This document shows, piece after piece, positions 9,374 through 23,317 of a stretch of DNA of 34,667 bases. The stretch spans positions 73,045-107,711 of the forward strand of contig JAAZCA010000036.1 of NCBI GenBank assembly GCA_012513515.1, given 5' to 3'. Under the pieces are notes generated by a model. The model worked only from the letters and a program-made list of their open reading frames with translations. It was not told the origin of the DNA and did no database searches. This DNA is from Myxococcales bacterium. Its GTDB lineage: Bacteria > UBA10199 > 2-02-FULL-44-16 > JAAZCA01. Position 1 is the first letter of the stretch; each line of letters begins with the position of its first letter. Both the position numbers and the translations under genes were made by a program.

Positions 9374-11827
9374 ATGGTTAAAAAAAGAATTCTAATAGTC
9401 GGCGGGGTCGCCGGCGGGGCGACTGCCGCCGCGAGGCTCAGGCGGCTCTCTGAGGATGACGAGATCGTCATCTTTGAACGCGGGGAATACGTTTCCTTTG
9501 CAAACTGCGGTCTTCCGTATTTCGTGGGTAAAGTTATCAAAAAAGAGGACTCGCTTCTGGTCCAGACCCCCGAAGGCCTGAGAGCCCGCTTTAACATAGA
9601 TGTTAGAATTCTCTCCGAGGTTGTGGCGATAGATCGCGAAAATCACGAGATAGAGGTGAAGGATCTCTCTTCAGGAAAAATTTACAGGGAGAGATACGAC
9701 AAGCTGATACTTTCGCCTGGAGCGAGCCCGATAAGGCCCCCGATGCCAGGCATCGATGACGAGCGCATCTTCACTTTAAGAACTGTGCCTGATGCACGCA
9801 GGATAAAATCCTTCGTAGATGAGAAACTCCCCCGCCGCGCTATAGTCATCGGAGGTGGATTCATCGGCCTCGAGATGGCGGAGAATCTTCACGAACGCGG
9901 TGTGCATGTCACGGTGGTCGAAAAGCTTCCTCAGGTTATGCCTAATCTCGATCCCGAGTTTGCGAACGTCATCACGCAGCATATGAAATTCAAGGGTGTT
10001 AATTTCATCCTTGGCGCGGGCATTTCCGGATTCAAAAGTGGAGATGCTCTCGTGGTCGAATTGGAAAACGGAGAGTCCCTCGAGGCCGAGATGGCGATTC
10101 TGGCGATCGGCGTTCGCCCCGACACGGCATTTGTGGCCAAGGCCGGAATAGACCTCGAGAAAAACGGTGCTATCAAGGTTGATAGTGCGATGCGCACGAA
10201 CGATCCGGATATTTTTGCGGTGGGGGACGCTGTTATCTCCGACAACCCGATAACTGGCGGAAGGTGGGGGATAGCGCTCGCCGGTCCGGCCAATGCACAG
10301 GCGAGAATAGCAGCCAACGTCATAAACGGGATCGAAGATTATTATGATGGTCCGGTTGGGACATCCATACTAAAGATATTTGATCTGGTCGTTGGATCGG
10401 CGGGGTGCACAGAAGGGTATTTGAAACAAAACTCGATTCCCTTTGAAAAGGTGTACACGCACACACCGAACCATGTTGGCTATTATCCGGGGGCTACCCC
10501 TATATCGGTGAAGCTGATCTTTAATCCAAAAGATGGCAGATTGTTGGGTGCGCAGTTTTCAGGGACGAAGGGGATAGATCGCCGCCTTGACGTCGTGGCA
10601 TCCGTCATCAGGATGAAGGGAACGGTCGCAGATCTTACGAGGCTTGATCTCGCCTATGCACCTCCCTTTGGTGCGGCAAAGGATGTCATCAACATAGCCG
10701 GGTATGTCGCTTCAAACGTGATTTCAGGCGATACAAAGATTATGCACTGGAACGACGTGGACGGGGTGAAATCCGATCCTTCATGGGTCATGCTCGACGT
10801 GAGGACCTCCGAGGAATTTTCGCTCGGCACCATACCGGGTGCCATAAATATTCCAGTCGATGAGCTTCGGTCCAGAATTTCAGAACTAAAGTCCGGAAAG
10901 AAGATCCTGTCCTTTTGCCAGGTCGGGTTGCGCGGATATTTGGCCGAGAGGATGCTGCGCCAGCACGCTTTCGACGTGAGAAACCTTTCCGGCGGATACA
11001 AAACCTACACGCAGGCGACTGACAGAGATTCCAGAAACATAACCGCGCCTGCGGAAAATATCGGGAGCGACGATATGCTTCAACCTGTGCCAGATAAATT
11101 GGCTTCCACGCACTTGCTTGATGCCTGCGGTCTTTCATGTCCCGGGCCGATAAAGCGCACTTTTGAAGAGGTTTCGCGCATCTCAGATGGTGAGATTTTG
11201 GAGGTCAGGGCTACCGATCTCGGATTTGCTCAGGACATCAAGTCCTGGTGTGAGAACACCGGAAATGAACTGCTTTCGGTCTCTTCCGATGACGGTGTCA
11301 TCGTTGCGAAGATACGTAAGCGTTCATATGATGAGGTGAGTTCGGCTAGGTCCACAGGTAACGAGAAGAGTATCGTGGTATTTTCCGGCGACATGGACAA
11401 AGTTATGGCGGCATTCGTAATCGCCACCGGTGCTGCCAGCATGGGGCAGAGGGTGAATATGTTTTTTACCTTCTGGGGACTAAATGCCATCAAGAGGCCG
11501 AACCCTCCGGCAGTGAATAAGGATTTTCTATCCCGCATGTTTGGCATGATGATGCCCAAAGGTGCATCTTCGCTGAAGCTCTCAAAGCTCAACATGGGCG
11601 GAGTCGGCACGCGCCTCATGAAATACGTGATGAAATCCAAAAAGGTTGATTCCCTGACCGATATGATATCCACCGCGCGTTCCGCAGGAATCAGGTTTGT
11701 AGCCTGCCAGATGTCGATGGATGTAATGGGGATATCGCGAGATGAGCTGATCGACGACGTTGAAGTGGGCGGGGTTGCCACATTCGTGGCGGATGCCGAC
11801 CGTTCAAATGCAACGCTGTTCATATAG
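9374..11827 (+). CDS. CoA-disulfide reductase / rhodanese / TusA / DsrE-like four-domain fusion
   Basis: An 817-residue fusion. Residues 1 to about 445 are a pyridine nucleotide-disulfide oxidoreductase of the CoA-disulfide reductase/NADH oxidase group: FAD motif GGVAGGATAAARLRR, redox Cys45 in SFANCGLPY, NAD(P) motif GGGFIGLEMAE, and FAD motif FAVGDA. A rhodanese domain follows (VMLDVRTSEEF near 471) with Cys515 in FCQVGLRG. Then a TusA domain has CGLSCPGP (Cys585, Cys589), and a DsrE/DsrF-like domain fills about 663-817. The order suggests that persulfide sulfur is passed along cysteines within one chain, with NAD(P)H-dependent reduction of CoA disulfide, persulfide or polysulfide. This is inferred from the families. 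GGAGGGGG directly precedes the ATG, and a strong terminator follows, so it is probably monocistronic. Confidence 0.93.
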   Translation: MVKKRILIVGGVAGGATAAARLRRLSEDDEIVIFERGEYVSFANCGLPYFVGKVIKKEDSLLVQTPEGLRARFNIDVRILSEVVAIDRENHEIEVKDLSSGKIYRERYDKLILSPGASPIRPPMPGIDDERIFTLRTVPDARRIKSFVDEKLPRRAIVIGGGFIGLEMAENLHERGVHVTVVEKLPQVMPNLDPEFANVITQHMKFKGVNFILGAGISGFKSGDALVVELENGESLEAEMAILAIGVRPDTAFVAKAGIDLEKNGAIKVDSAMRTNDPDIFAVGDAVISDNPITGGRWGIALAGPANAQARIAANVINGIEDYYDGPVGTSILKIFDLVVGSAGCTEGYLKQNSIPFEKVYTHTPNHVGYYPGATPISVKLIFNPKDGRLLGAQFSGTKGIDRRLDVVASVIRMKGTVADLTRLDLAYAPPFGAAKDVINIAGYVASNVISGDTKIMHWNDVDGVKSDPSWVMLDVRTSEEFSLGTIPGAINIPVDELRSRISELKSGKKILSFCQVGLRGYLAERMLRQHAFDVRNLSGGYKTYTQATDRDSRNITAPAENIGSDDMLQPVPDKLASTHLLDACGLSCPGPIKRTFEEVSRISDGEILEVRATDLGFAQDIKSWCENTGNELLSVSSDDGVIVAKIRKRSYDEVSSARSTGNEKSIVVFSGDMDKVMAAFVIATGAASMGQRVNMFFTFWGLNAIKRPNPPAVNKDFLSRMFGMMMPKGASSLKLSKLNMGGVGTRLMKYVMKSKKVDSLTDMISTARSAGIRFVACQMSMDVMGISRDELIDDVEVGGVATFVADADRSNATLFI

Positions 11828-11938: not shown

Positions 11939-12142
11939 ATGAAAACAAACCTCTTTAAAATGATTCGTAATAGCAGGGGGCAGGCGGCGACGGAGTATAT
12001 GCTGGTCATAGCGGTCGTTGTCCTGGGGCTCGTATCCGCCGCGAGCCACTTCATCCCCGTGTTCAACAGCGCGGTGGCGGGGCTTGCGCACAACGTCGCT
12101 GGATGGCTCACCACCAACCAACAGATGTCAAATCCGCAATGA
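11939..12142 (+). CDS. Flp-type prepilin
   Basis: A 67-residue protein with the form of a Flp/Tad major pilin precursor. A short basic leader ends in RG, and cleavage by the prepilin peptidase would give QAATEYMLVIAVVVLGLV, with Glu at +5 and Tyr at +6 as in Flp pilins, followed by the hydrophobic assembly helix. The start is uncertain. The ATG at 11939 gives a 14-residue leader, but the predicted sigma-54 start site is only three bases upstream of it. The ATG at 11960 would give a seven-residue leader (MIRNSRG) and a 24-base untranslated region. Neither has a clear ribosome binding site. Its stop overlaps the next ATG by four bases. It heads a cluster of Tad genes. Confidence 0.88.
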   Translation: MKTNLFKMIRNSRGQAATEYMLVIAVVVLGLVSAASHFIPVFNSAVAGLAHNVAGWLTTNQQMSNPQ

Positions 12143-12468
12143 GAAGAGGATATCTGAAATGTGGTGCAGGATTCGCGTCGGTGGAGATGATTCTCGCGAT
12201 TCCATTTGTAGCCGCGCTTATCTTCGGCTTTGCGATGATAGTCTCGGCTTCAATAGGTGGGATGACCGATTCGATGCGCTCCTTTTACATTTCAAGAGGG
12301 CGCTCGATGTTCTGTGAGGGGTTTTGTCTCCCCCGGGTGGAGTCCAAGAAAATCCTGCCTTCTTTGCAAGCGCTTCCCCCTGATCTTTCAAATGAAATTC
12401 TAAGGGGAGGAGATACCCCCTCGCCTTACTGCAGATCTTCCGGAGGATATCGCCTGTGTGCGCTATGA
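12139..12468 (+). CDS. TadE-like pseudopilin
   Basis: A 109-residue protein with a TadE-type N-terminus: a short basic leader, GAGFASVEMILAIPFVAALIF, and a single membrane helix with Glu early in it, like the processed pseudopilins of Tad systems. The C-terminal part is Cys- and Pro-containing and poorly conserved. TadE-like proteins are thought to be minor pilins needed for pilus assembly. The ATG at 12139 overlaps the pilin stop (ATGA), so translation is coupled. It is shorter than typical TadE, and there is a second TadE-like gene two positions downstream. Confidence 0.8.
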   Translation: MRRGYLKCGAGFASVEMILAIPFVAALIFGFAMIVSASIGGMTDSMRSFYISRGRSMFCEGFCLPRVESKKILPSLQALPPDLSNEILRGGDTPSPYCRSSGGYRLCAL

Positions 12469-13283
12469 GATTTGGAAATTGCCGCGGCTTTTCGTTCATT
12501 ATGACGATGATGCTGGTTCCTGCTTTCATGGCGGCGCTTTCCGCCGTGGTCCTGATCGGACAGGTATCGATCGCGAAGATGCGTTTGCAGATCGCCGCCG
12601 ACCGCGGTGCCTATATCGGTGCGATGACGCTCGCAAAATCCCTGAACGAAATCGCATCTTCCAACAGAGCGATCCATTCGGCTTTTAAGTCCATAAGAAA
12701 GGATTTTATCGGCGACATGCAGCAGAGCGAGTCCGCCGCAAGAGAAAGGATAGAGAGGTATCAAAGCGAGATCGGGCTCGAGTTTCAAAAGGTCGGCAGA
12801 ATTTTGACTCGAGCTCCCGAGCTCGCCCGCTCGTACGCCCTTGCGGTAGCCATGTCAAACGCCCCTGCATCTGAGTTGGAAGTCATAGTAAAAGCCGATT
12901 TTGCCATATCAGACCGACTCGATCCGGATTTTCAGTGGAGTCGGCTTTCATACGATTTTGTGGAGGGGGGTAATTTTGCCGATCCGGAGGGGGTCGGGCA
13001 CGGCTATTTCGATGCCCTTTCGCATCTGCTCAAAGAACGGCGTTTCGATGGATGGGTTGCGGTCGTCGCGGCGCAGCCTGTCGCGCCTTTGTCTTTGTCC
13101 ACTTCTTACGGCGGAGTTTTTTCTGTGACGGCGACCTCCGCTGCCAAGGCCTACGGCGGATCGATAGTTAATTACGCTATTTCCCACCATGAAGATCGCC
13201 AGTCTATGTCCAATGAAATTCTACCCGACTGGCTGTATAGGGCGGCGATGATTCCTTTTGAGCTGCTTAAGGGAGGGGGATGA
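12456..13283 (+). CDS. TadG-like / TadE-G family pilus assembly protein
   Basis: A 275-residue protein that begins with a basic stretch and one long membrane helix (FSFIMTMMLVPAFMAALSAVVLIG), followed by QVSIAKMRLQIAADRGAYIGAMTLAKSLNEIA. That layout, with Asp-Arg-Gly-Ala/Ala-Ala residues after the helix, is typical of TadG-like Flp assembly proteins. The rest is a periplasmic helical then beta-rich domain with no recognisable von Willebrand domain, unlike full-length TadG. The start is a GTG at 12456, eight bases after GGAGGA; an ATG at 12465 that overlaps the upstream stop is equally plausible. The product is probably membrane-anchored with its bulk in the periplasm. Confidence 0.75.
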   Translation: MCAMRFGNCRGFSFIMTMMLVPAFMAALSAVVLIGQVSIAKMRLQIAADRGAYIGAMTLAKSLNEIASSNRAIHSAFKSIRKDFIGDMQQSESAARERIERYQSEIGLEFQKVGRILTRAPELARSYALAVAMSNAPASELEVIVKADFAISDRLDPDFQWSRLSYDFVEGGNFADPEGVGHGYFDALSHLLKERRFDGWVAVVAAQPVAPLSLSTSYGGVFSVTATSAAKAYGGSIVNYAISHHEDRQSMSNEILPDWLYRAAMIPFELLKGGG

Positions 13284-13624
13284 TGAGGTTTTCTTTTGGT
13301 GAGGAGGGCTTTGCGGCTCTGGAGATAGCGGTGGCGGCTCCGCTCGCCGCGCTCTTCATAGTCATTGTCATGCAGTTCGCCGGTATCTTTCATGCAGCCA
13401 TGAAAAATATCTCGGATGCGAATCTCGAAAGCTCGCTCGCCGCGCAGAAGTGGGAGATCGCCAATGCGCTCAATGGGATGAATAGGCCGTGCATCGAACG
13501 TTCAGGGGCGGACCGCTATAATTCGCGGAATTTGCGCATACCGACAGGAGTCGGTGACTCAGTTCTTCAAACATTCACGGGTCAGGGGGTTCTCCTCTAT
13601 TATGAAGATATCTGCGATGATTGA
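13280..13624 (+). CDS. Second TadE-like pseudopilin
   Basis: A 114-residue protein with the TadE pattern: basic start, GEEGFAALEIAVAAPLAALFIVIVMQFAG with Glu five residues after the probable cleavage glycine, then a short helical and polar region. It is distinct in sequence from the TadE-like protein at 12139. Its ATG overlaps the previous stop by four bases, and the cpaB gene starts inside its 3' end. Having two TadE-like proteins plus a TadG-like protein is common in Tad loci, where they form a minor-pilin set. Confidence 0.8.
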   Translation: MMRFSFGEEGFAALEIAVAAPLAALFIVIVMQFAGIFHAAMKNISDANLESSLAAQKWEIANALNGMNRPCIERSGADRYNSRNLRIPTGVGDSVLQTFTGQGVLLYYEDICDD

Positions 13625-14432
13625 GTTTCTCAGAAAAAATAAAGGGATTGCTGTTCCCGCTATAGCGGCCCTGGTCGCAGCTTTTTTGGCGATGGGACAT
13701 ATCGAACGAAAGGAGCGCGAGCTGCTGGGTTTTGCCGAACCTGTCGAAGTTATAACGGCTTCGGAGGATATCAAGGCGGGGGATATGATATCGATCTCTG
13801 CGATAACCCGCGCTTCAGTTCCCAGAAAATTTCTCACCCCGCGTCCAATTTTCAATATTGTTGAAGCTGTGGGAAGGGTCGCGGCGGTGACAATACCCGA
13901 AGGGTCTCAGATATCGCAGACCTTTCTGCTGCCTGAAGGGGAGATTCCTCTCTCATCGATAATTCCGGACGGAATGCGCTTGGTCACACTCCCGCTGCCG
14001 GAGTCCTACGGCCAGATGTATATTTCAAGAGGGGATCGCGTCGATCTTATCGCTACTTTCGATCTCAAGGAAAACGGATCTGCAAAGGGAGCCTCGTTCC
14101 ATCTCGTCGAGGGCGCATTGGTTGTTGCGGCCGGGGATAGAAATGATCATTCGGTTTCGCCACGTCCGAAACAAAAGGAGGCAGGGATGTTCGGTGGGAT
14201 TAATGGCATCACTTCAGAAAGGGGAACGAAATCGATCTCGATAGCGGTTGCCCCGGGGGATGACAGCAAAATCTATTTTGCCTCCCACTTTGGAGAACTT
14301 TCTTTTTCCCTTCGGCCTATGGGCGATTCGGAGGATTTCGAAAGCTCCCCGGCCACCATAGAGTCAATCGCAGGAAAGTTTCATGAATTGAATGAGAGGG
14401 GAGTCCGGTTTAAGGAATTTCGTGGGAGATGA
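13602..14432 (+). CDS. cpaB: Flp pilus assembly protein CpaB/RcpC
   Basis: A 276-residue protein with an N-terminal membrane helix (IAVPAIAALVAAFLAMGHI) and then a SAF-type domain (PVEVITASEDIKAGDMISISAITRASVPRKF), followed by IPEGSQISQTFLLP and a periplasmic domain with SISIAVAPGDDSKIYFASHFGELSFSLRP. These are the features of CpaB/RcpC, an inner-membrane-linked periplasmic protein that works with the secretin in Tad systems. Two ATG codons, 13602 and 13617, are possible, and both overlap the end of the upstream gene; I give the longer form without strong preference. The secretin gene starts one base after its stop codon. Confidence 0.88.
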   Translation: MKISAMIEFLRKNKGIAVPAIAALVAAFLAMGHIERKERELLGFAEPVEVITASEDIKAGDMISISAITRASVPRKFLTPRPIFNIVEAVGRVAAVTIPEGSQISQTFLLPEGEIPLSSIIPDGMRLVTLPLPESYGQMYISRGDRVDLIATFDLKENGSAKGASFHLVEGALVVAAGDRNDHSVSPRPKQKEAGMFGGINGITSERGTKSISIAVAPGDDSKIYFASHFGELSFSLRPMGDSEDFESSPATIESIAGKFHELNERGVRFKEFRGR

Positions 14433-14433
14433 G

Positions 14434-15948
14434 ATGCATAGGCGGTTTAAAATTTTTATTACGTTGTTCCTCATCGGTTTCGGGTTATCATCGGAAGCTG
14501 GAGTTTCCGATGCTTCCGATCTGCCGGAGATCATGACCCTCGTCAGGGGACAATCCAGGACCATGAATCTTGAATATGAGGTCGGCGACGTAGCGATAGC
14601 CGACAACAGATGCTGCGACTTCCAGGTCTCAACCGATAGAAAAAACCTATATCTCTCGGCGAAGGATCGAGGTGAGACCTCTTTGACTGTTTGGGATTCG
14701 TCAGGTGAGAAACGCGACGAGTTCAGGATCAGAGTCGTTGTAAGTACTCTGAAAGATATCCTGGATGCCGCTACCGAGAGATTCGGCTCCCTTGATGGAG
14801 TCAGGATTGAGATCAGAAATGGCAGGGTTGAGATAGAGGGAGAGGTGGCTGATCCTCGTGAGTTTAGAGAAATAGAGTCGTTTTCATCACGCGATTCGAA
14901 CGTAAAAAATTCCACGCGGTTGTCTGAAAAATTGATAGGCAGGAGGGCTCAGCTGATCGAGGAGAGCATAGGGATCCATGGAGTTAGGGCGCGCCCGATG
15001 AGGGACAAGATACTTCTCGAGGGGGTTATCTATGGCGAAGCGGATCGAAAGAAGGCCCTTGAGATAGCATCCCTTTACTCCGATGAAATTGTGGATCTCC
15101 TGGAGGTGAGGGATGTCGGGCGCAGGATCGGCGATGGCGAGTTGGTCGAGCTGGAATTTCACATGATGGAGGTTAAGAAGGGGGCCCTGCGCGAACTTGG
15201 GCTTAGCTGGGCTCCGGGCGCCGTACCAAGTGGTGGCTCTGGCAACGGTTCGTTTGGCGGGGATGGAATTCTTTCCTCGATAGGTGATCTGGGAAGGTCG
15301 GTTTTGGGTTTTGTCTTTCAGTTTATACCGAAACTCAAGAGCATACGCGAGCGCGGCGAGGGAAGGGTTCTCGAAAATTCATCGGTGGTTATAAAAAGCG
15401 GCGATGCGGGAGAAATATTCAGCGGCTCCGAAATTCCTTTCTATAGGGATGACGAGGTCGGTTTTAAAAAGGTCGGAATAGAAATAAAGGCTGAGCCGGT
15501 TGTCATTGGAGATTCTGTAGACATAAAGCTCAAGACGACTCTTTCCTCACCTTCTCCCGATATCAGGGGCGCGGTGGATACTCATACCATATCCACGACC
15601 GCGCTTTGTCCGCTGGGATATAGCGTGGTGATAGGAAATATAATCCGCAATGTCGATGTTAAGATGAAAAATCGAGTGCCTCGCGGAATAGACACAAGCT
15701 CGGCTCTGTTTACATTGTTTCTTTCGAGCGATTTTCAATCCAATCGCTCTGAGTTCGTTGTGTTCATCACGCCCAAAAAGGTCAGAGTTCCGTCTCCCGG
15801 CGCCGTTAAGCTTGCTGAATTTCTTTCACTAGAAGAAAAAATAAATTCCGACGCAGAAGGTAAAAGAGGTATCCCGGAGAAATCTGCCTCAGCAAAAAAA
15901 AGGAATCATAAACAGCGGGGTGCGCGCAGGGCAAGGGGGCATAGGTGA
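14434..15948 (+). CDS. cpaC: Tad/Flp pilus secretin CpaC/RcpA
   Basis: A 504-residue outer-membrane secretin. A signal peptide (FKIFITLFLIGFGLSSEAGVSDA) is followed by the pilus N domain (MTLVRGQSRTMNLEYEVGDVAIAD to about residue 105), a BON-like domain (GVRIEIRNGRVEIEGEV) and the secretin core. The core starts with VELEFHMMEVKKGALRELGLSW near residue 235 and includes VVIKSGDAGEIFSGSEIPFY and VFITPKKVRVP. The C-terminal 40 residues are strongly basic, which is unusual. The ATG at 14434 follows GGGAG by good spacing and comes one base after the cpaB stop. The protein would form the outer-membrane channel for the pilus. The gene overlaps the next one by four bases. Confidence 0.92.
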   Translation: MHRRFKIFITLFLIGFGLSSEAGVSDASDLPEIMTLVRGQSRTMNLEYEVGDVAIADNRCCDFQVSTDRKNLYLSAKDRGETSLTVWDSSGEKRDEFRIRVVVSTLKDILDAATERFGSLDGVRIEIRNGRVEIEGEVADPREFREIESFSSRDSNVKNSTRLSEKLIGRRAQLIEESIGIHGVRARPMRDKILLEGVIYGEADRKKALEIASLYSDEIVDLLEVRDVGRRIGDGELVELEFHMMEVKKGALRELGLSWAPGAVPSGGSGNGSFGGDGILSSIGDLGRSVLGFVFQFIPKLKSIRERGEGRVLENSSVVIKSGDAGEIFSGSEIPFYRDDEVGFKKVGIEIKAEPVVIGDSVDIKLKTTLSSPSPDIRGAVDTHTISTTALCPLGYSVVIGNIIRNVDVKMKNRVPRGIDTSSALFTLFLSSDFQSNRSEFVVFITPKKVRVPSPGAVKLAEFLSLEEKINSDAEGKRGIPEKSASAKKRNHKQRGARRARGHR

Positions 15949-17666
15949 GGATCGTGGCGGTTTCAGGGATCGAAGAGGGCAGGGATCTTGCGGATTCGAT
16001 TTCATCTGTCGATTCCGGCATGCGGGCGGAGAAGATCGGCTACATAGTCCTTATTTCTGAATGTGGTTTGAAGCATGGGCTGGCGTCCTATGAGGAATAT
16101 AATCGTCTGTTCGATGAGTTCGATTCCAATTCGTTCAAAAATTATGTGAGGGCTAAGGGAGTATGCGGCCAGGCTCTGGTCGTTGGTGAAAATGAAATTT
16201 CGGAATCGGTTTTTTTCGCCATCGGCGAAGCCTACGATCTAATGATTTTGGATAGACGATATCCATGGAGCGGTAAAATGCCAGGAAATATTCCCATCCC
16301 TCTTGTTTATTTTCTCGGGGCCTGTGAAAGGGCCGAAGTCTCCCGGATGTGTAGGAATGCGGCTAAAGAAATCGGCTCATCTTCACCCTTCGTGCCGGTC
16401 GGTTTTGCCATGCGAAGCCACGACCTTCATTCATCGGTCGTGATCGCGAGAAGGTCGGAATTGGCTTTCATAGGATCTTTTGACGATCCTTCGATTGTGG
16501 CGCGGAGGCTATTCGACCATTCAGCTCTTTACGAATCATGCGTGCGTGTAGGCGAAGTCCTTGGTTATGAAAGTTCTCAAAAACCTCCATCTTTGCCACG
16601 GCCATCGTCACCAGCCGCGGTTATAAATTCCGAACTTTGCGCCACGGATCTCTTGGGATGTCAGGCAATATCAGACCTTCTCGGCGACGAAGATGTCACC
16701 GAGATAATGGTGAACGGATATGATCGGATATATGTCGAAAAATCAGGAATAATATCGAAGGAAAATTGTTCATTTGAAAGCTCTGAGGCCCTTCTCTCTT
16801 CCATCGAGAGGCTTATATCGTATTCAAACAGAAGGATAGACGAGCTTCATCCCATGGCGGACGCCCGCCTATCGGATGGATCCAGAATAAATGCGGCGAT
16901 TCCACCCATATCGATAGATGGTCCGGTCATGACCATCAGAAAGTTCAGACGAGATGTCGCTTCAGCGAAAGACATAGTGGAGGGCGGTACGATTTCCGCG
17001 GATGCTATGGAATTTCTCATGAAATGCGTGGCCAGCCGAGGCAGTATCCTCATATCCGGGGGAACCGGCTCTGGTAAAACTACGCTGCTGGGCATACTCG
17101 GCTCTGCCATACCTTCATCCGAACGCATTATCACAATAGAAGATGCCGCTGAGCTTTCACTAAAGACGGATCATGTGGTCAGGTTTGAATCGCGTCCGCC
17201 TAACATAGAGGGACGCGGAGAGATATCCATCAGGGACCTTCTGAAAAACGCGCTGCGAATGCGGCCGGACAGGATAATAATAGGTGAATGCCGCGGAGCG
17301 GAGGCGGTCGACATGCTGCAGGCGATGAACACCGGCCACGAAGGTTCTCTTGCGACGATCCACGCAAATTCTCCGAAGGATGCGCTCTCCAGGCTTGAGA
17401 CCATGGTCCTTATGGCGAAGGTGGAAATTCCGATATTGGCAATAAGGGAGCAGATAGCCAGGGCGATAGATTTCGTCGTTCAGGTAGTCAGATTTGCCGA
17501 CGGAAGGAGGAGAGTTGTGAGTATTTCAGAAATAACAGGAATAGATTCTGGCGTTATAGGCATGCAGAGTTTGTACGAATACAGAAAGAAGGGTGATCTC
17601 CTCTTTTCCACAGGTATGCGCGCATCTTTTTTTGACTCAGGCGATACTGCGGGAGAATTTTTATGA
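15945..17666 (+). CDS. cpaF: Tad assembly ATPase CpaF/TadA with TadZ-like N-terminal extension
   Basis: A 573-residue protein. The C-terminal two thirds is the secretion ATPase CpaF/TadA. It begins near residue 240 with ISDLLGDEDVTEIMVNGYDRIYVE and has ISIDGPVMTIRKF, Walker A GGTGSGKT at 372-379, ITIEDAAEL, the Walker B region RIIIGECRGAEA and the His box GHEGSLATIHANSP. This ATPase powers Tad pilus assembly. The first 220 residues are not found in ordinary CpaF. They start MRIVAVSG, contain AYDLMILDRRYPW and IPLVYFLGACERAEVSRMC, and so resemble a MinD/TadZ-type alpha/beta fold without its P-loop lysine motif. A Pro/Ser-rich linker (PPSLPRPSSPA) joins the two. The GTG start overlaps the secretin stop by four bases. 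Confidence 0.93.
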   Translation: MRIVAVSGIEEGRDLADSISSVDSGMRAEKIGYIVLISECGLKHGLASYEEYNRLFDEFDSNSFKNYVRAKGVCGQALVVGENEISESVFFAIGEAYDLMILDRRYPWSGKMPGNIPIPLVYFLGACERAEVSRMCRNAAKEIGSSSPFVPVGFAMRSHDLHSSVVIARRSELAFIGSFDDPSIVARRLFDHSALYESCVRVGEVLGYESSQKPPSLPRPSSPAAVINSELCATDLLGCQAISDLLGDEDVTEIMVNGYDRIYVEKSGIISKENCSFESSEALLSSIERLISYSNRRIDELHPMADARLSDGSRINAAIPPISIDGPVMTIRKFRRDVASAKDIVEGGTISADAMEFLMKCVASRGSILISGGTGSGKTTLLGILGSAIPSSERIITIEDAAELSLKTDHVVRFESRPPNIEGRGEISIRDLLKNALRMRPDRIIIGECRGAEAVDMLQAMNTGHEGSLATIHANSPKDALSRLETMVLMAKVEIPILAIREQIARAIDFVVQVVRFADGRRRVVSISEITGIDSGVIGMQSLYEYRKKGDLLFSTGMRASFFDSGDTAGEFL

Positions 17667-18331
17667 CCGGATTCATAGTAGCCGTGCTTCTCTTTGGATC
17701 TGTCTTTGTATTATTTTCGAATCTCTCATTAAAATCGATTTTAGATGAACTCAGGAGGCGTATCGGTGCGTTCTTTTTTTCAAGGAGGATGAAGAAGTGC
17801 AGAGACCAGATTTCTACAGCGCTGGCTGTAGTGGCCAATTCGCTACGCGCAGGGATCTCGCTGCAACAGTCGATAAAATCGGCTTCCGATGAAATTTCGG
17901 CCCCTCTCGGAGAAGAGCTGGCCGCCTTAACTTCCGATGTCGAGAGCGGCGTCTCGATAGAGCGCGCAGCGGATAAAATGGCTCAAAGGGTCGCTTGCGA
18001 GGAGGCGATTTTATTCGCGCAATCGATTTCGGCGCTTCGCAGATGCGGTGGCGATATGATTGCGGCTCTGGATATCGTCATGGCGATATCGGCTGAGAGA
18101 AAACGCCTTTCAGATAAGATCAAGACCTGCGGTGCTCAAGCGCGTTTCCAGATGTGGACGCTTGCTGCAATGCCATGGTTTCTCGTCGTGGCGCTGCATT
18201 TTGTATCTCCCGGATACGTCTCTCCGTTGATTCGAAGCAGGCTTGGAATTTTCTTGATCATGATAGCGTTGAGCCTCGAGGGGGTCGGTATTTTCTGGAT
18301 ACACCTGCTTTCAAAGAGGGCTCTTCGATGA
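17663..18331 (+). CDS. tadB: TadB-like inner-membrane platform protein
   Basis: A 222-residue protein of the type II secretion F family. It has an N-terminal membrane helix and then the cytoplasmic helical domain ALAVVANSLRAGISLQQSIKSASDEI and GVSIERAADKM, followed by SISALRRCGGDMIAALDIVMAISAERKR. Two C-terminal membrane helices complete it. TadB and TadC together form the inner-membrane platform on which the ATPase acts. It is a little shorter than many TadB proteins, which often carry two helices at the N-terminus. Start and stop overlap both neighbours by four bases, typical of this operon. Assignment as TadB over TadC rests mainly on order. Confidence 0.87.
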   Translation: MTGFIVAVLLFGSVFVLFSNLSLKSILDELRRRIGAFFFSRRMKKCRDQISTALAVVANSLRAGISLQQSIKSASDEISAPLGEELAALTSDVESGVSIERAADKMAQRVACEEAILFAQSISALRRCGGDMIAALDIVMAISAERKRLSDKIKTCGAQARFQMWTLAAMPWFLVVALHFVSPGYVSPLIRSRLGIFLIMIALSLEGVGIFWIHLLSKRALR

Positions 18332-18876
18332 GTATCTCCCGTCTTTTTATGATTTTTGTGGCGGCGTGCATGTTCGAATCAACTCCTTTTTCCGCTTACG
18401 CACATCAAGGTCGGTATCTCGTCGCATATTCCTTCGATGAGAAAGGTGCGCGCGTGATTGATAGAAAAATAATAAGGAAGATCGATTGTGTTTCGATGAA
18501 GGGAAAGATGAAAATAACGGCGCCAGAATTTGCGTCGGCTTTTGCATGTTCCGCCATATCCAGCGGCGGAATAGTGCTGGCCGATGTTGAGGGGGAACTC
18601 TTTTCTATTTCCGTTAGGTTGGGAGCTTTGGATGACAGATGCGCGGAATGTCGTAATTTATCCGTCGAGTCTTTCATCGATACTGGAGCTTCATCGCCTC
18701 CAGAGGAACTCGTGTGCAGAAATTTTTCAGGCAGCGGCAAGGTCCTGCTTGATAAAAAGGGAAATGCTACCGCGGGCGTGGCTGAGATCAAATTTAAAAA
18801 TAATTGTGAAGGATTGTTTAAGCGGCGGGATTCAGATGAATCAATTTTCGATATGGCGTGGGCGTATTTGGGGTAA
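18328..18876 (+). CDS. Unknown secreted protein within the Tad operon
   Basis: A 182-residue protein with an N-terminal signal peptide (LFMIFVAACMFESTPFSAYA) and a mature part with many cysteines (in KIDCVSM, AFACSA, RCAEC, VCRNF, NNCEG), suggesting disulfide bonds in the periplasm. I find no family resemblance. It lies between tadB and tadC, which are normally adjacent, and its ATG overlaps the tadB stop by four bases. That makes it part of the operon and a candidate accessory component. The start at 18328 is preferred over an in-frame start at 18154, which would lie entirely inside tadB. Confidence 0.72.
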   Translation: MSISRLFMIFVAACMFESTPFSAYAHQGRYLVAYSFDEKGARVIDRKIIRKIDCVSMKGKMKITAPEFASAFACSAISSGGIVLADVEGELFSISVRLGALDDRCAECRNLSVESFIDTGASSPPEELVCRNFSGSGKVLLDKKGNATAGVAEIKFKNNCEGLFKRRDSDESIFDMAWAYLG

Positions 18877-18884
18877 TAATTTTT

Positions 18885-19769
18885 ATGGAAAAATATATCT
18901 CATCGGCAATAGCGGGGTTTTTGGCATTCAATATGGTTCCACCCCTGATACGCAGAATAAACTCGTTTATGCTGGGGATGGATGCGGCTGCGGAGCGAGA
19001 GCGTTCTCCGCTGCTTAAATTTTTACTTCCGGTGGCATCTTTTGCCTCTGCCCTAGTGGGGGATTGGAAATTTTTCAAGAACGACAAATATGAAAGAGAC
19101 TTTGTCATTTCAGGCCTTTGCATGCGGACCGACTTGAAATCATTCGCGCTTATGCATGCTCTTGTATTTCCGGTGGCAGGGGCTCTTTGTTCGATTCTCT
19201 GTTTTTCCTTCGGGATTCCAACCATCGTCATCGGATTAGCCGCAGGGAGGTTTTTAGGGCATGCATGGATTTCTGCGATGATCAGGGAAAGGGCGCGATC
19301 GATAGAAAGGGATCTCCCATTTTTGCTCGATCTTATGAGTATATCGATAAGCGCGGGGAGCGATTCCATACAGTCGATGATAAGGATATCTTCAAGGCTT
19401 GGAGAGGGTCCTCTCAAAGAATTTATTTCGGAAGCTGCGCGGAAGATGGCGTCAGGTAAATCCAGGAGAGAGGTTATGTCAGAGATGGCGGCCAAAAGCC
19501 CATCTCCAGAACTTGCATCTTTCGCATCGCTGTTGGTCAACGCGGAGAGGCTTGGGGTCGGCGTCAGCAAATTTCTCCGCTCTCAGGGCGCGAGCATGAG
19601 AAGCTCCCGCCTTATGGAACTTGAAAGGCGCGGTATGGTTGCGTCGCAGATGATGGTTATTCCAATAGTCATGCTGATAATGCCGGCAACCTTCATCGTA
19701 TTGTTCGGGCCTGTGATCGTGCGTTTTGCCAGCGGAGGAGTAGCGGCGGTGATGGGAGGTGTTATTTGA
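18885..19769 (+). CDS. tadC: TadC-like inner-membrane platform protein
   Basis: A 294-residue type II secretion F family protein. Hydrophobic helices lie at about 5-20, 45-60 and 100-135, and a cytoplasmic domain has LPFLLDLMSISISAGSDSIQSMIRISSRLGEGPLKEF and SLLVNAERLGVGVSKFL. Two C-terminal membrane helices (MMVIPIVMLIMPATFIVLFG) follow. This is the usual TadC arrangement, the partner of TadB. The ATG at 18885, eight bases after the upstream stop, is chosen; GGGG lies upstream. A GTG at 18858 would overlap the previous gene. The next gene begins inside its 3' end. Confidence 0.87.
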   Translation: MEKYISSAIAGFLAFNMVPPLIRRINSFMLGMDAAAERERSPLLKFLLPVASFASALVGDWKFFKNDKYERDFVISGLCMRTDLKSFALMHALVFPVAGALCSILCFSFGIPTIVIGLAAGRFLGHAWISAMIRERARSIERDLPFLLDLMSISISAGSDSIQSMIRISSRLGEGPLKEFISEAARKMASGKSRREVMSEMAAKSPSPELASFASLLVNAERLGVGVSKFLRSQGASMRSSRLMELERRGMVASQMMVIPIVMLIMPATFIVLFGPVIVRFASGGVAAVMGGVI

Positions 19770-20210: not shown

Positions 20211-20621
20211 GTGAGCAGAAGAGTTTTTGTCTGGTTTCTCCTTGTCGTTGGGGTCGTTTTTCTGTTCATCGGAAACTTTAAGTTCGACAGGAAATCTGAA
20301 ATCGTGGCTCTTCAGAAAAAAGATTTGGAGGATATGAATGTGCCTGAAACATCACAGGAAATTTCCAGACTCCTCAAGCTCGAAGCGGTTCGCCGTGTCC
20401 AGCTTGGTGATTTCATCTCCGCTGCCGCAATTTGCAGGCGTTCCGCTTTTTTGGATCCAGAGAGCGGTAATTGTCAGGAATATCTTTTGAAAAGAGTCGA
20501 TAAAAAAATGGCCGGATTAAAGTCGGCGGTAATTTCACTGGAGGCGTCGGGGTTTCCCGGTGAAGCTTCGCTGATGGCGCGAAGCGCGGAGAGAATCGAA
20601 AGGATGGAGGTGCCGGAGTGA
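20211..20621 (+). CDS. Unknown single-pass membrane protein
   Basis: A 136-residue protein with one membrane helix near the N-terminus (VFVWFLLVVGVVFLFIGNF), then a helical soluble part. LEAVRRVQLGDFISAAAICRRSAFLDPESGNCQEYLL looks like a tetratricopeptide-type helix pair. The GTG at 20211 is chosen because AAAGGAG sits eight bases upstream; an ATG at 20175 would lie inside the previous gene and has a poorer site. The ribosome site is within the perfect palindrome AAGGAGCTCCTT. By position and TPR character it may be an assembly accessory of the Tad system. Confidence 0.65.
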   Translation: MSRRVFVWFLLVVGVVFLFIGNFKFDRKSEIVALQKKDLEDMNVPETSQEISRLLKLEAVRRVQLGDFISAAAICRRSAFLDPESGNCQEYLLKRVDKKMAGLKSAVISLEASGFPGEASLMARSAERIERMEVPE

Positions 20622-21418
20622 GGTCTCTTATTTTGAGCTCCGTTTTTTTTATTTTTATAGCTTCGGCTATTTCGTGCTCAGGGGCGGGAAGAGTAGGGGA
20701 GGGAATCGCTATCGTGGATGAGGAGTCAGCCGCGGGCGAAATCCCCGCGGGGTTTCTGAAGGATATCAGAGGGCACATATCTAAGGGGGATTTCGTACAA
20801 GCCAGGGCTTCTGTGCTTGAGGCCCTCGAACTTTTTGGGTCAAACCCGAGCATCGTCAAGCTTATGGAGTATATTCAAAAGCAATTTGAGCGGCAGAAAG
20901 ATGTAGATGCCAAGAACTCGGCGAAACTTTCGGCGGTTTCATCCTATGTCGATGCAATTCTTTCCTACGAGTCGGGGGAAAATGAAAAGTCTCTTCGGGA
21001 GATCGAAACTTCCCTTTCCGATCTCAAAAAGTTTGCCGCGGAGCCTCCCATTCTAAAGAGCGTTTTGCGCGCAAAGGGTTTCGTGAGCGGGTTAGTAGGG
21101 GAGTCGTGTCTTGCCTTGGCCGCAGAAATTCAACAAAAAATACGAGAGGCATCAGGCATGGAGGACCCTATGGCGATGCTGTCGGCGCTTCACGATGCGT
21201 GGTATCATCCTGAGCTGTGCGAAAGGGAGAGGGGGCGAGTTTTTTCTGCAGTCGAAGCGGAGCTTGCAGAGCAGATGAGCCTCTTTCAGGAAGAGGAAAA
21301 ATTTTTCGGATGCTCCAAGCAAATTCCTTTCTATAAGGTGCTATGCCAGAAGTTTCCGGATGCGATATCGTGCCGGGATGCAGAGTCGAGGATTGAAAGG
21401 TGTTCAAAGGAATACTGA
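20618..21418 (+). CDS. TPR-like lipoprotein, possible TadD equivalent
   Basis: A 266-residue protein with a lipoprotein signal (LILSSVFFIFIASAISC, lipobox ending at Cys20), followed by a helical protein with repeat-like helices: GDFVQARASVLEALELFGSNPSIVKLMEYIQKQFERQ and YVDAILSYESGENEKSLREIETSLSDLKKF. In Tad systems TadD is an outer-membrane lipoprotein with TPR repeats that helps place the secretin, so this could be its counterpart; that is inference from architecture and position. The GTG at 20618 overlaps the upstream stop by four bases. The C-terminal region has several cysteines. Confidence 0.68.
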   Translation: MRSLILSSVFFIFIASAISCSGAGRVGEGIAIVDEESAAGEIPAGFLKDIRGHISKGDFVQARASVLEALELFGSNPSIVKLMEYIQKQFERQKDVDAKNSAKLSAVSSYVDAILSYESGENEKSLREIETSLSDLKKFAAEPPILKSVLRAKGFVSGLVGESCLALAAEIQQKIREASGMEDPMAMLSALHDAWYHPELCERERGRVFSAVEAELAEQMSLFQEEEKFFGCSKQIPFYKVLCQKFPDAISCRDAESRIERCSKEY

Positions 21419-22492: not shown

Positions 22493-23317
22493 ATGAAGAG
22501 TAAAAGAGCGGCCAAAGGTAAATCACGGGTTAATGCTAAGACTAAGACTAAGTCTAAGACTAAGACTAAGTCTAAGTCTAAGACTAAGTCTAAGACTAAG
22601 TCTAAGTCTAAGTCTAAGTCTAAGGTCAAGCTTAAGCCTAAGAGCAGGACTAAAACCAAGACCAAAGCCGGTGTAAAAAACTCCAAGACGATCAAGGCTA
22701 AAAAGAAAGCCTCTGTGAAGGGTGCGACCAAGAAACCCTCTGACGGAGTCAGGAAATCCAAGCCCCTTCCGGTTAAACCTCCATCGTTAGAAGGCAAGGG
22801 AATAAGGGAGCTTGCGGCTGCAATATCATCTTATATCAAGGCTCTTGGATTTGATCCCGTTTTGACGGGGCAGGGGTGTGCGGCAGTTTACGGCGCTTCC
22901 GGAATTCATCTCAGGGGGCTTGAGTTTGTGATCAGCGAATACATCTCGAAAAAAATCGAGGCCGCGATGAAGGAGCTCGGTTTCAAGCACCTTGTCCATC
23001 GCACATATGGGTCAGAGAAATTGGGGATAGAGGTCAGCTTCCTTCCCCCTCCAGTATGTGTTGGCGACGAGATGGTTGGCGATATTCCTGTGATCAAGAC
23101 CTCCTCTGGTGATCTGAGCCTGCTTTCGCCGACCGACTGTGTAAGGCATAGGCTTGCGTACTATTACCGGTTTGGAAACAAGGACGGACTTGATGAAGCC
23201 CTGATCGTCGCCCGCAAAAACAAGGTAGATCTGGATCTTATAGAGCGCTGGTCTCACTGGGAGTGGGCTTCGGATAAATTTCAGGATTTTCACGACCTTC
23301 TCCGCGGCTTCATGTAG
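22493..23317 (+). CDS. Nucleotidyltransferase-like protein with long Lys-Thr/Ser repeat N-terminus
   Basis: A 274-residue protein in two parts. Residues 1 to about 95 are extremely basic low-complexity sequence, with a run of Lys alternating with Thr or Ser at about residues 16-44 encoded by a hexamer repeat. From about residue 100 a globular domain resembles bacterial nucleotidyltransferase-superfamily proteins: VLTGQGCAAVYGASGIHLRGLEFVIS corresponds to their GG-x-A-x-x-x-Y region and LSPTDCVRHRLAYYYRFGNKDGLDEALIVA to their conserved C-terminal segment. The acidic metal-binding residues expected after the first motif are not evident, so catalysis is doubtful. The Lys-rich tail could bind nucleic acid. 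No clear ribosome binding site precedes the ATG. Confidence 0.72.
   Translation: MKSKRAAKGKSRVNAKTKTKSKTKTKSKSKTKSKTKSKSKSKSKVKLKPKSRTKTKTKAGVKNSKTIKAKKKASVKGATKKPSDGVRKSKPLPVKPPSLEGKGIRELAAAISSYIKALGFDPVLTGQGCAAVYGASGIHLRGLEFVISEYISKKIEAAMKELGFKHLVHRTYGSEKLGIEVSFLPPPVCVGDEMVGDIPVIKTSSGDLSLLSPTDCVRHRLAYYYRFGNKDGLDEALIVARKNKVDLDLIERWSHWEWASDKFQDFHDLLRGFM
22538..22624 (+). repeat. In-frame hexanucleotide repeat tract
   Basis: Eighty-seven bases of AAG alternating with ACT or TCT, 29 codons in all. Every Lys is AAG and all Thr/Ser codons are ACT/TCT, suggesting recent expansion by slippage. Because the unit is six bases, copy changes alter tail length but keep the frame. Confidence 0.95.

Follow-up and report, generated by a model that had tools for sequence, protein, structure and literature searches.

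The fused ATPase gene and its Tad operon

The window analysed here is a 34,667-nucleotide stretch of the Myxococcales bacterium assembly GCA_012513515.1 (contig JAAZCA010000036.1, positions 73,045 to 107,711), and it contains a Tad pilus operon in which the gene for the motor ATPase TadA (CpaF) also encodes a further N-terminal domain. This domain appears to be a TadZ/CpaE-like, MinD/ParA-type domain that has lost its P-loop, and we refer to it as pseudo-TadZ. Positions are those of the window, and L and G numbers are our labels for proteins and genomes compared with it. The gene and its parts are as follows.

15945..17666, + strand: fused pseudo-TadZ/TadA (CpaF) ATPase, 573 amino acids (open reading frame, translation, T2SSE, TIGR03819)
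15945..16544, + strand: TadZ/MinD-like pseudo-ATPase domain, residues 1 to about 200 (profile comparison, model topology)
15966..15998, + strand: GIEEGRDLADS, residues 8-18, at the place of Walker A (alignments)
16083..16160, + strand: Tad-type helical segment between strands 2 and 3, residues 47-72, ASYEEYNRLFDEFDSNSFKNYVRAKG (alignments)
16233..16259, + strand: Walker B strand position YDLMILDRR, residues 97-105 (alignments)
16545..16661, + strand: short Pro/Ser-rich linker (comparison with L007, L094, L095 and L098)
16662..17495, + strand: TadA/CpaF motor core, T2SSE, comprising N-terminal domain 2 (NTD2) and the RecA-like domain (Pfam T2SSE)
17058..17081, + strand: motor Walker A GGTGSGKT, intact (translation, motif position)

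The frame opens with a GTG start, is free of internal stops, and overlaps its neighbours by 4 nucleotides on both sides (cpaC upstream, tadB downstream). An in-frame stop immediately precedes the GTG, and the frame therefore has no upstream extension to a hidden P-loop; a P-loop hidden in another frame was also ruled out, as neither of the other two frames encodes one across 15841-16140. The protein matches Pfam T2SSE at residues 240-517 (E 8.6e-57), with the motor Walker A continuing as GGTGSGKTT, and TIGR03819 (TadA family) at residues 228-528 (1.6e-93), scoring 313.6 bits against a curated cut-off of 373. The first-pass annotation had described a normal CpaF core behind an N-terminal stretch, which agrees with the T2SSE match and its intact Walker A, and the N-terminal motifs that it listed are all present: MRIVAVSG at residues 1-8, GIEEGRDLADS where a P-loop would be expected, and the YDLMILDRR strand followed by IPIPLVYFLGACERAEVSRMC.

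In relatives, the position of GIEEGRDLADS is occupied by a deviant Walker A (G-x-x-K/R-D-G-V-G-K/A/T-S/T), the motif expected of TadZ/CpaE and not present in the window N-domain. Asp residues after strand 2 are gone or changed (DLD in L007 versus SEC in the window), and Walker B is mostly lost across the family; the window protein, unlike its family relatives, still has Asp103. The Tad-type helical segment is retained, its counterpart in fused relatives being RTIAEFLPYVDQLTPQTFGPYIQAHG. The TadZ-like domain starts at residue 1, leaving no N-terminal REC-like domain, and the closest intact fusions likewise have no REC.

The operon order is Flp, TadE-like, TadG-like, TadE-like, cpaB, cpaC, the fused gene, tadB and tadC, and the prepilin peptidase is encoded elsewhere in the genome. 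The neighbouring genes are:

11939..12142, + strand: Flp-type major pilin, GQAATEYMLVIAVVVLG (sequence; orthologues at the same place in family genomes)
12103..12468, + strand: TadE-like minor pilin reading frame (syntenic in three family genomes; no Pfam match)
12456..13283, + strand: TadG-like (Pfam Tad) protein (PF13400; syntenic)
13280..13624, + strand: second TadE-like minor pilin reading frame (weak PF07811; syntenic)
13554..14432, + strand: CpaB/RcpC (TIGR03177, PF16976, PF08666)
14392..15948, + strand: CpaC/RcpA secretin (PF00263, PF13629)
17663..18331, + strand: TadB platform protein (PF00482)
18858..19769, + strand: TadC platform protein (PF00482)

At other Tad loci a standalone tadZ lies directly before tadA, and here the N-terminal domain occupies that slot; the order cpaC-[TadZ-TadA]-tadB is conserved in related genomes with no tadZ between. 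The first-pass annotation saw no separate tadZ in the operon, and none was found there or anywhere else in the genome, which is 99.3% complete. Of the clear ParA/MinD-type matches in the genome none is a TadZ: reading their sequences identified a ParA-like protein of the chromosome, two ferredoxin-type ATPases resembling MinD, and signal recognition particle-type GTPases.

Several other reading frames lie nearby. One at 18154-18876 overlaps the end of tadB and reaches tadC, and with its apparent signal peptide (MSISRLFMIFVAACMF...) likely encodes a small secreted or periplasmic protein. Downstream of tadC is a putative lipoprotein (SAISCSGAG; 20618-21418) with a possible TadD-type role, and then a repeat-rich frame; a KTKSKSKTKSK-type repeat, strongly Lys/Ser/Thr-rich, is at the N-terminus of a predicted protein (22493-22700). 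Upstream, CoA-disulfide reductase, rhodanese, TusA-like and DsrE-like parts seem, judged by eye, to be joined in an 817-amino acid frame (9374-11827).

Homology of the N-terminal domain to TadZ

By BLAST, the window N-domain matches those of its family with E-values of 1.7e-6 (L095), 2.1e-5 (L094) and 0.006 (L096). The family N-domain profile aligns by hhalign to a profile of fused TadZ at 96.9% (E 1.4e-10) over 182 collinear columns and to the class profile alone at 96.6% (E 6e-10), these E-values applying to a single comparison. The match is still 96.7% with the P-loop columns masked, and again 96.7% with the window sequence removed from the family profile. Control profiles for TadB, TadC, CpaB and CpaC each gave less than 1%, and the top score in 50 column shuffles was 19 versus the real 75. 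With the class profile, a search finds the ParA-family structure 3ea0 at 1.7e-19, and class relatives match AAA_31/ParA/CbiA directly. These comparisons support the assignment of residues 1 to about 200 as a TadZ (MinD/ParA-like) domain without Walker A.

An AlphaFold2 model built with 24 alignment rows, none of them a family member from the whole-genome searches (predicted local distance difference test, pLDDT, 61.6; predicted template modelling score 0.56) places strands and helices in MinD order, and Foldseek matched it to FlhG (E 5.8e-5), MinD, NifH and ParA with probability 1.00. This moderate-confidence model is compatible with MinD/ParA topology and is no independent proof of it, because its alignment consists of TadZ sequences. 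An earlier model from eight near-identical fused rows, a poorer alignment, had a pLDDT of 42 and no Foldseek match and was discarded. The TadZ identity without a P-loop that the first-pass annotation proposed is thus supported by the collinear family profile and the model topology, and no different fold emerged.

Some results weigh against this picture. The window sequence alone gives only 2.8% against the TadZ profile, and the TadZ assignment therefore depends on the family profile. Searching Pfam and PDB profiles directly with the P-loop-less set returned nothing meaningful. The alignment subset for the second model was chosen from 400 random subsets as one preserving the hhalign register, which biases that model (alternative alignments misregistered residues 118-150). 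Finally, a strong amphipathic membrane helix was sought at the end of the N-domain and none was seen, the hydrophobic moments from residue 176 onward being only 0.14-0.32.

That the domain is unrelated to TadZ, or a sequence artefact such as a frameshift in the P-loop region, is hardly credible. The window sequence alone finds no family (residues 1-225 have no Pfam match), as such an explanation would have it; against this stand the family-level homology with its controls, the repetition of the loss in three other independent assemblies, and the lack of a P-loop in the other frames.

Relatives and the loss of the P-loop

The first-pass annotation did not see how common TadZ-TadA fusions are in relatives whose P-loop is wholly or partly preserved. 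Most of the best outside matches are 731-amino acid proteins from Deltaproteobacteria-labelled metagenome-assembled genomes (MAGs). Their first 250 residues form a TadZ/MinD domain that retains the deviant Walker A intact (GGARDGVGKT), and NCBIfam MinD models match this part of one of them (L007). A Bacillota MAG (L049) has the TadZ-TadA architecture as well. In the window's own class, TadA with an N-terminal extension is found in 14 of 46 genomes, all in open frames of at least 553 amino acids. In nine of these sequences a loop of MinD type is kept, for example KDGVGAST, in which the second Lys is absent; Pfam AAA_31 matches seven of the nine. The fusion that the first-pass annotation suggested looking for elsewhere is therefore the rule in the class, and is present in the Deltaproteobacteria-labelled MAGs and the one Bacillota MAG.

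Three proteins of the window's family (L094, L095, L096) and two from its order (L103, L105) no longer have the loop, and the sequence in its place differs from one protein to the next; the states among relatives are stepwise: GVGKTT, KDGVGAST, lost. At E 0.01 the P-loop-less domain profile has one match in each family genome (4/4), fused every time, and none in the rest of the class; this recurrence argues that the domain is not a chance feature. In a motor-core tree the four family proteins group together (support 96/96) and a branch with support 89/93 has the six P-loop-less proteins as one of its sides, which fits a single loss of the P-loop. Fusions other than L049 lie on one side of a branch with weak support (46/35). 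A single clade of all fusions is neither shown nor rejected (approximately unbiased test, p 0.31), and the own class alone as one clade has p 0.049, such that transfer or long-branch effects may have played a part; the window protein, L105 and L106 are long branches and their placements are to be taken with caution. From homology and synteny we take it as established that the gene descends from a tadZ-tadA fusion; the nucleotide site of its TadZ half has been lost in this family.

Could the domain still bind nucleotide through a non-canonical site and go on switching? The second Lys is missing from many standalone TadZs, and Walker B Asp103 is kept in the window protein. However, the Gly-rich loop itself is gone and its replacement differs per relative, whereas the atypical standalone TadZs keep KGGxGxT, and we regard this explanation as very unlikely. 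The fused domain is best described as a putative pseudo-ATPase, for which the ATP-gated dimerisation of free TadZ/CpaE is very probably impossible.

The TadZ half might alternatively be a decaying relic, functionless after the fusion and merely tolerated. The lost nucleotide motifs, a family N-domain identity of only 15-31%, and a window N-domain shorter than in its relatives are in keeping with this. However, the domain is open and nearly full length across four genera, and its divergence at equal core identity is close to that of class relatives keeping part of the P-loop (no clear difference indicative of relaxed selection on the N-domain was seen at equal core divergence), so that the fold still seems constrained. 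A relic is accordingly a distinctly improbable explanation.

The searches turned up other proteins of note. L009 and L023, from MAGs titled Klebsiella pneumoniae, are TadZ-TadA fusions that group inside the Deltaproteobacteria-labelled set, and the record names are probably wrong. In L012 and L039 (MAGs labelled Thiohalobacter sp., Gammaproteobacteria) the TadA N-termini are FHA-like by eye and resemble Myxococcus xanthus KilF. The sister genomes G003 and G001 encode MinD/FlhG-like ATPases (L117, L118, L119, L120) not found in the window's genome; they were considered as extra TadZ proteins and rejected, being MinD/FlhG- or ParA-like, and no protein of the window Tad operon matches those stretches.

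The motor junction and the probable role of pseudo-TadZ

Only about 50 residues separate the N-domain from the motor motif VTEIMVNG, and the three-helix module of TadA N-terminal domain 1 (NTD1) is missing. L007, L094, L095 and L098 have this module, and neither the window protein nor L096 does; the TIGR03819 alignment begins at profile position 41 in the window versus 15 in L007. The Gly hinge region is also changed in the window, from GLG to GCQ. The first-pass annotation mentioned neither the NTD1 loss nor the hinge change (16545-16661). Because NTD1 is missing, pseudo-TadZ is predicted to be placed almost directly on the motor ring.

Known systems share parts of this arrangement. The fusions L007-L011, L013-L016 and L023, and L097-L102, L104, L106 and L107 of the class, have the same domain order and N-domain homology and, where checked, the same position in the Tad operon. 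Unlike the window protein they have a full (GVGKTT; GQGRST in L010/L011) or partial (KDGVGAST and similar) Walker A, and those checked for NTD1 retain it. Standalone TadZ/CpaE (Eubacterium rectale TadZ, Caulobacter crescentus CpaE) is likewise a MinD/ParA-type domain encoded in a Tad operon immediately before tadA, but as a separate gene, usually with REC in front and with KGGxGxT kept and ATP bound in the literature. Its atypical Walker A still binds ATP, and it localises early to the assembly pole (PMC6668835, PMC13170226); in situ work on C. crescentus fitted a CpaE ring encircling the CpaF hexamer (PMC13170226). TadA/CpaF shares NTD2, the RecA-like core and the intact Walker A with the window protein, but where the window protein has pseudo-TadZ, CpaF carries NTD0, which is disordered, and the three-helix NTD1 (PMC11300603). 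KilF of M. xanthus, from a single-ATPase system (PMC8460266), likewise has a further domain in front of its TadA motor, but that domain is FHA and unrelated to TadZ. N-terminal fusions to TadA are thus already known; the window protein adds a variant in which pseudo-TadZ is joined to a TadA devoid of NTD1. A literature search of partial coverage found no paper on TadZ-TadA fusions.

We consider it probable, from the comparisons above, that the nucleotide-site-less domain of this tadZ-tadA fusion descendant is a permanent docking or crown module tying the pilus motor to its assembly site. Covalent attachment would give six TadZ copies per motor hexamer, with the motor supplying local concentration and symmetry, and oligomerisation by the motor would replace ATP-driven dimerisation. 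Nucleotide-driven dimerisation would then be dispensable and the nucleotide site free to erode, while the domain would stay as a permanent link between motor and assembly site; in the window species it may also stand in for the missing NTD1 atop the ring. A bolder version, possible and held only tentatively, is that a ParA/MinD-type switch has become a non-switching motor subunit, six pseudo-TadZ domains crowning the TadA hexamer in place of NTD1 and making localisation and motor assembly one event.

Pseudo-TadZ might instead no longer position anything and mainly cap the TadA ring, mechanically or as a regulator, replacing NTD1 and tuning extension and retraction. Pointing this way are the absence of NTD1 from the window protein and from L096, the altered hinge of the former, and C. 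crescentus CpaF, in which the hinge between NTD1 and NTD2 is essential and retraction is influenced by NTD0 (PMC11300603). Yet L094, L095, L103 and L105 have no P-loop and retain an NTD1-like stretch, from which it follows that P-loop loss came without replacement of NTD1, and we think a cap role alone rather unlikely.

If pseudo-TadZ is indeed a docking module, the ATP of TadZ would be predicted to be dispensable once TadZ is held covalently on the motor. With the operon intact, members of this lineage differ in graded fashion, by fusion, by the catalytic Lys, by the whole P-loop and, in two genera, by NTD1, and the lineage may serve as a natural test of the role of TadZ's ATP in Tad pilus assembly.
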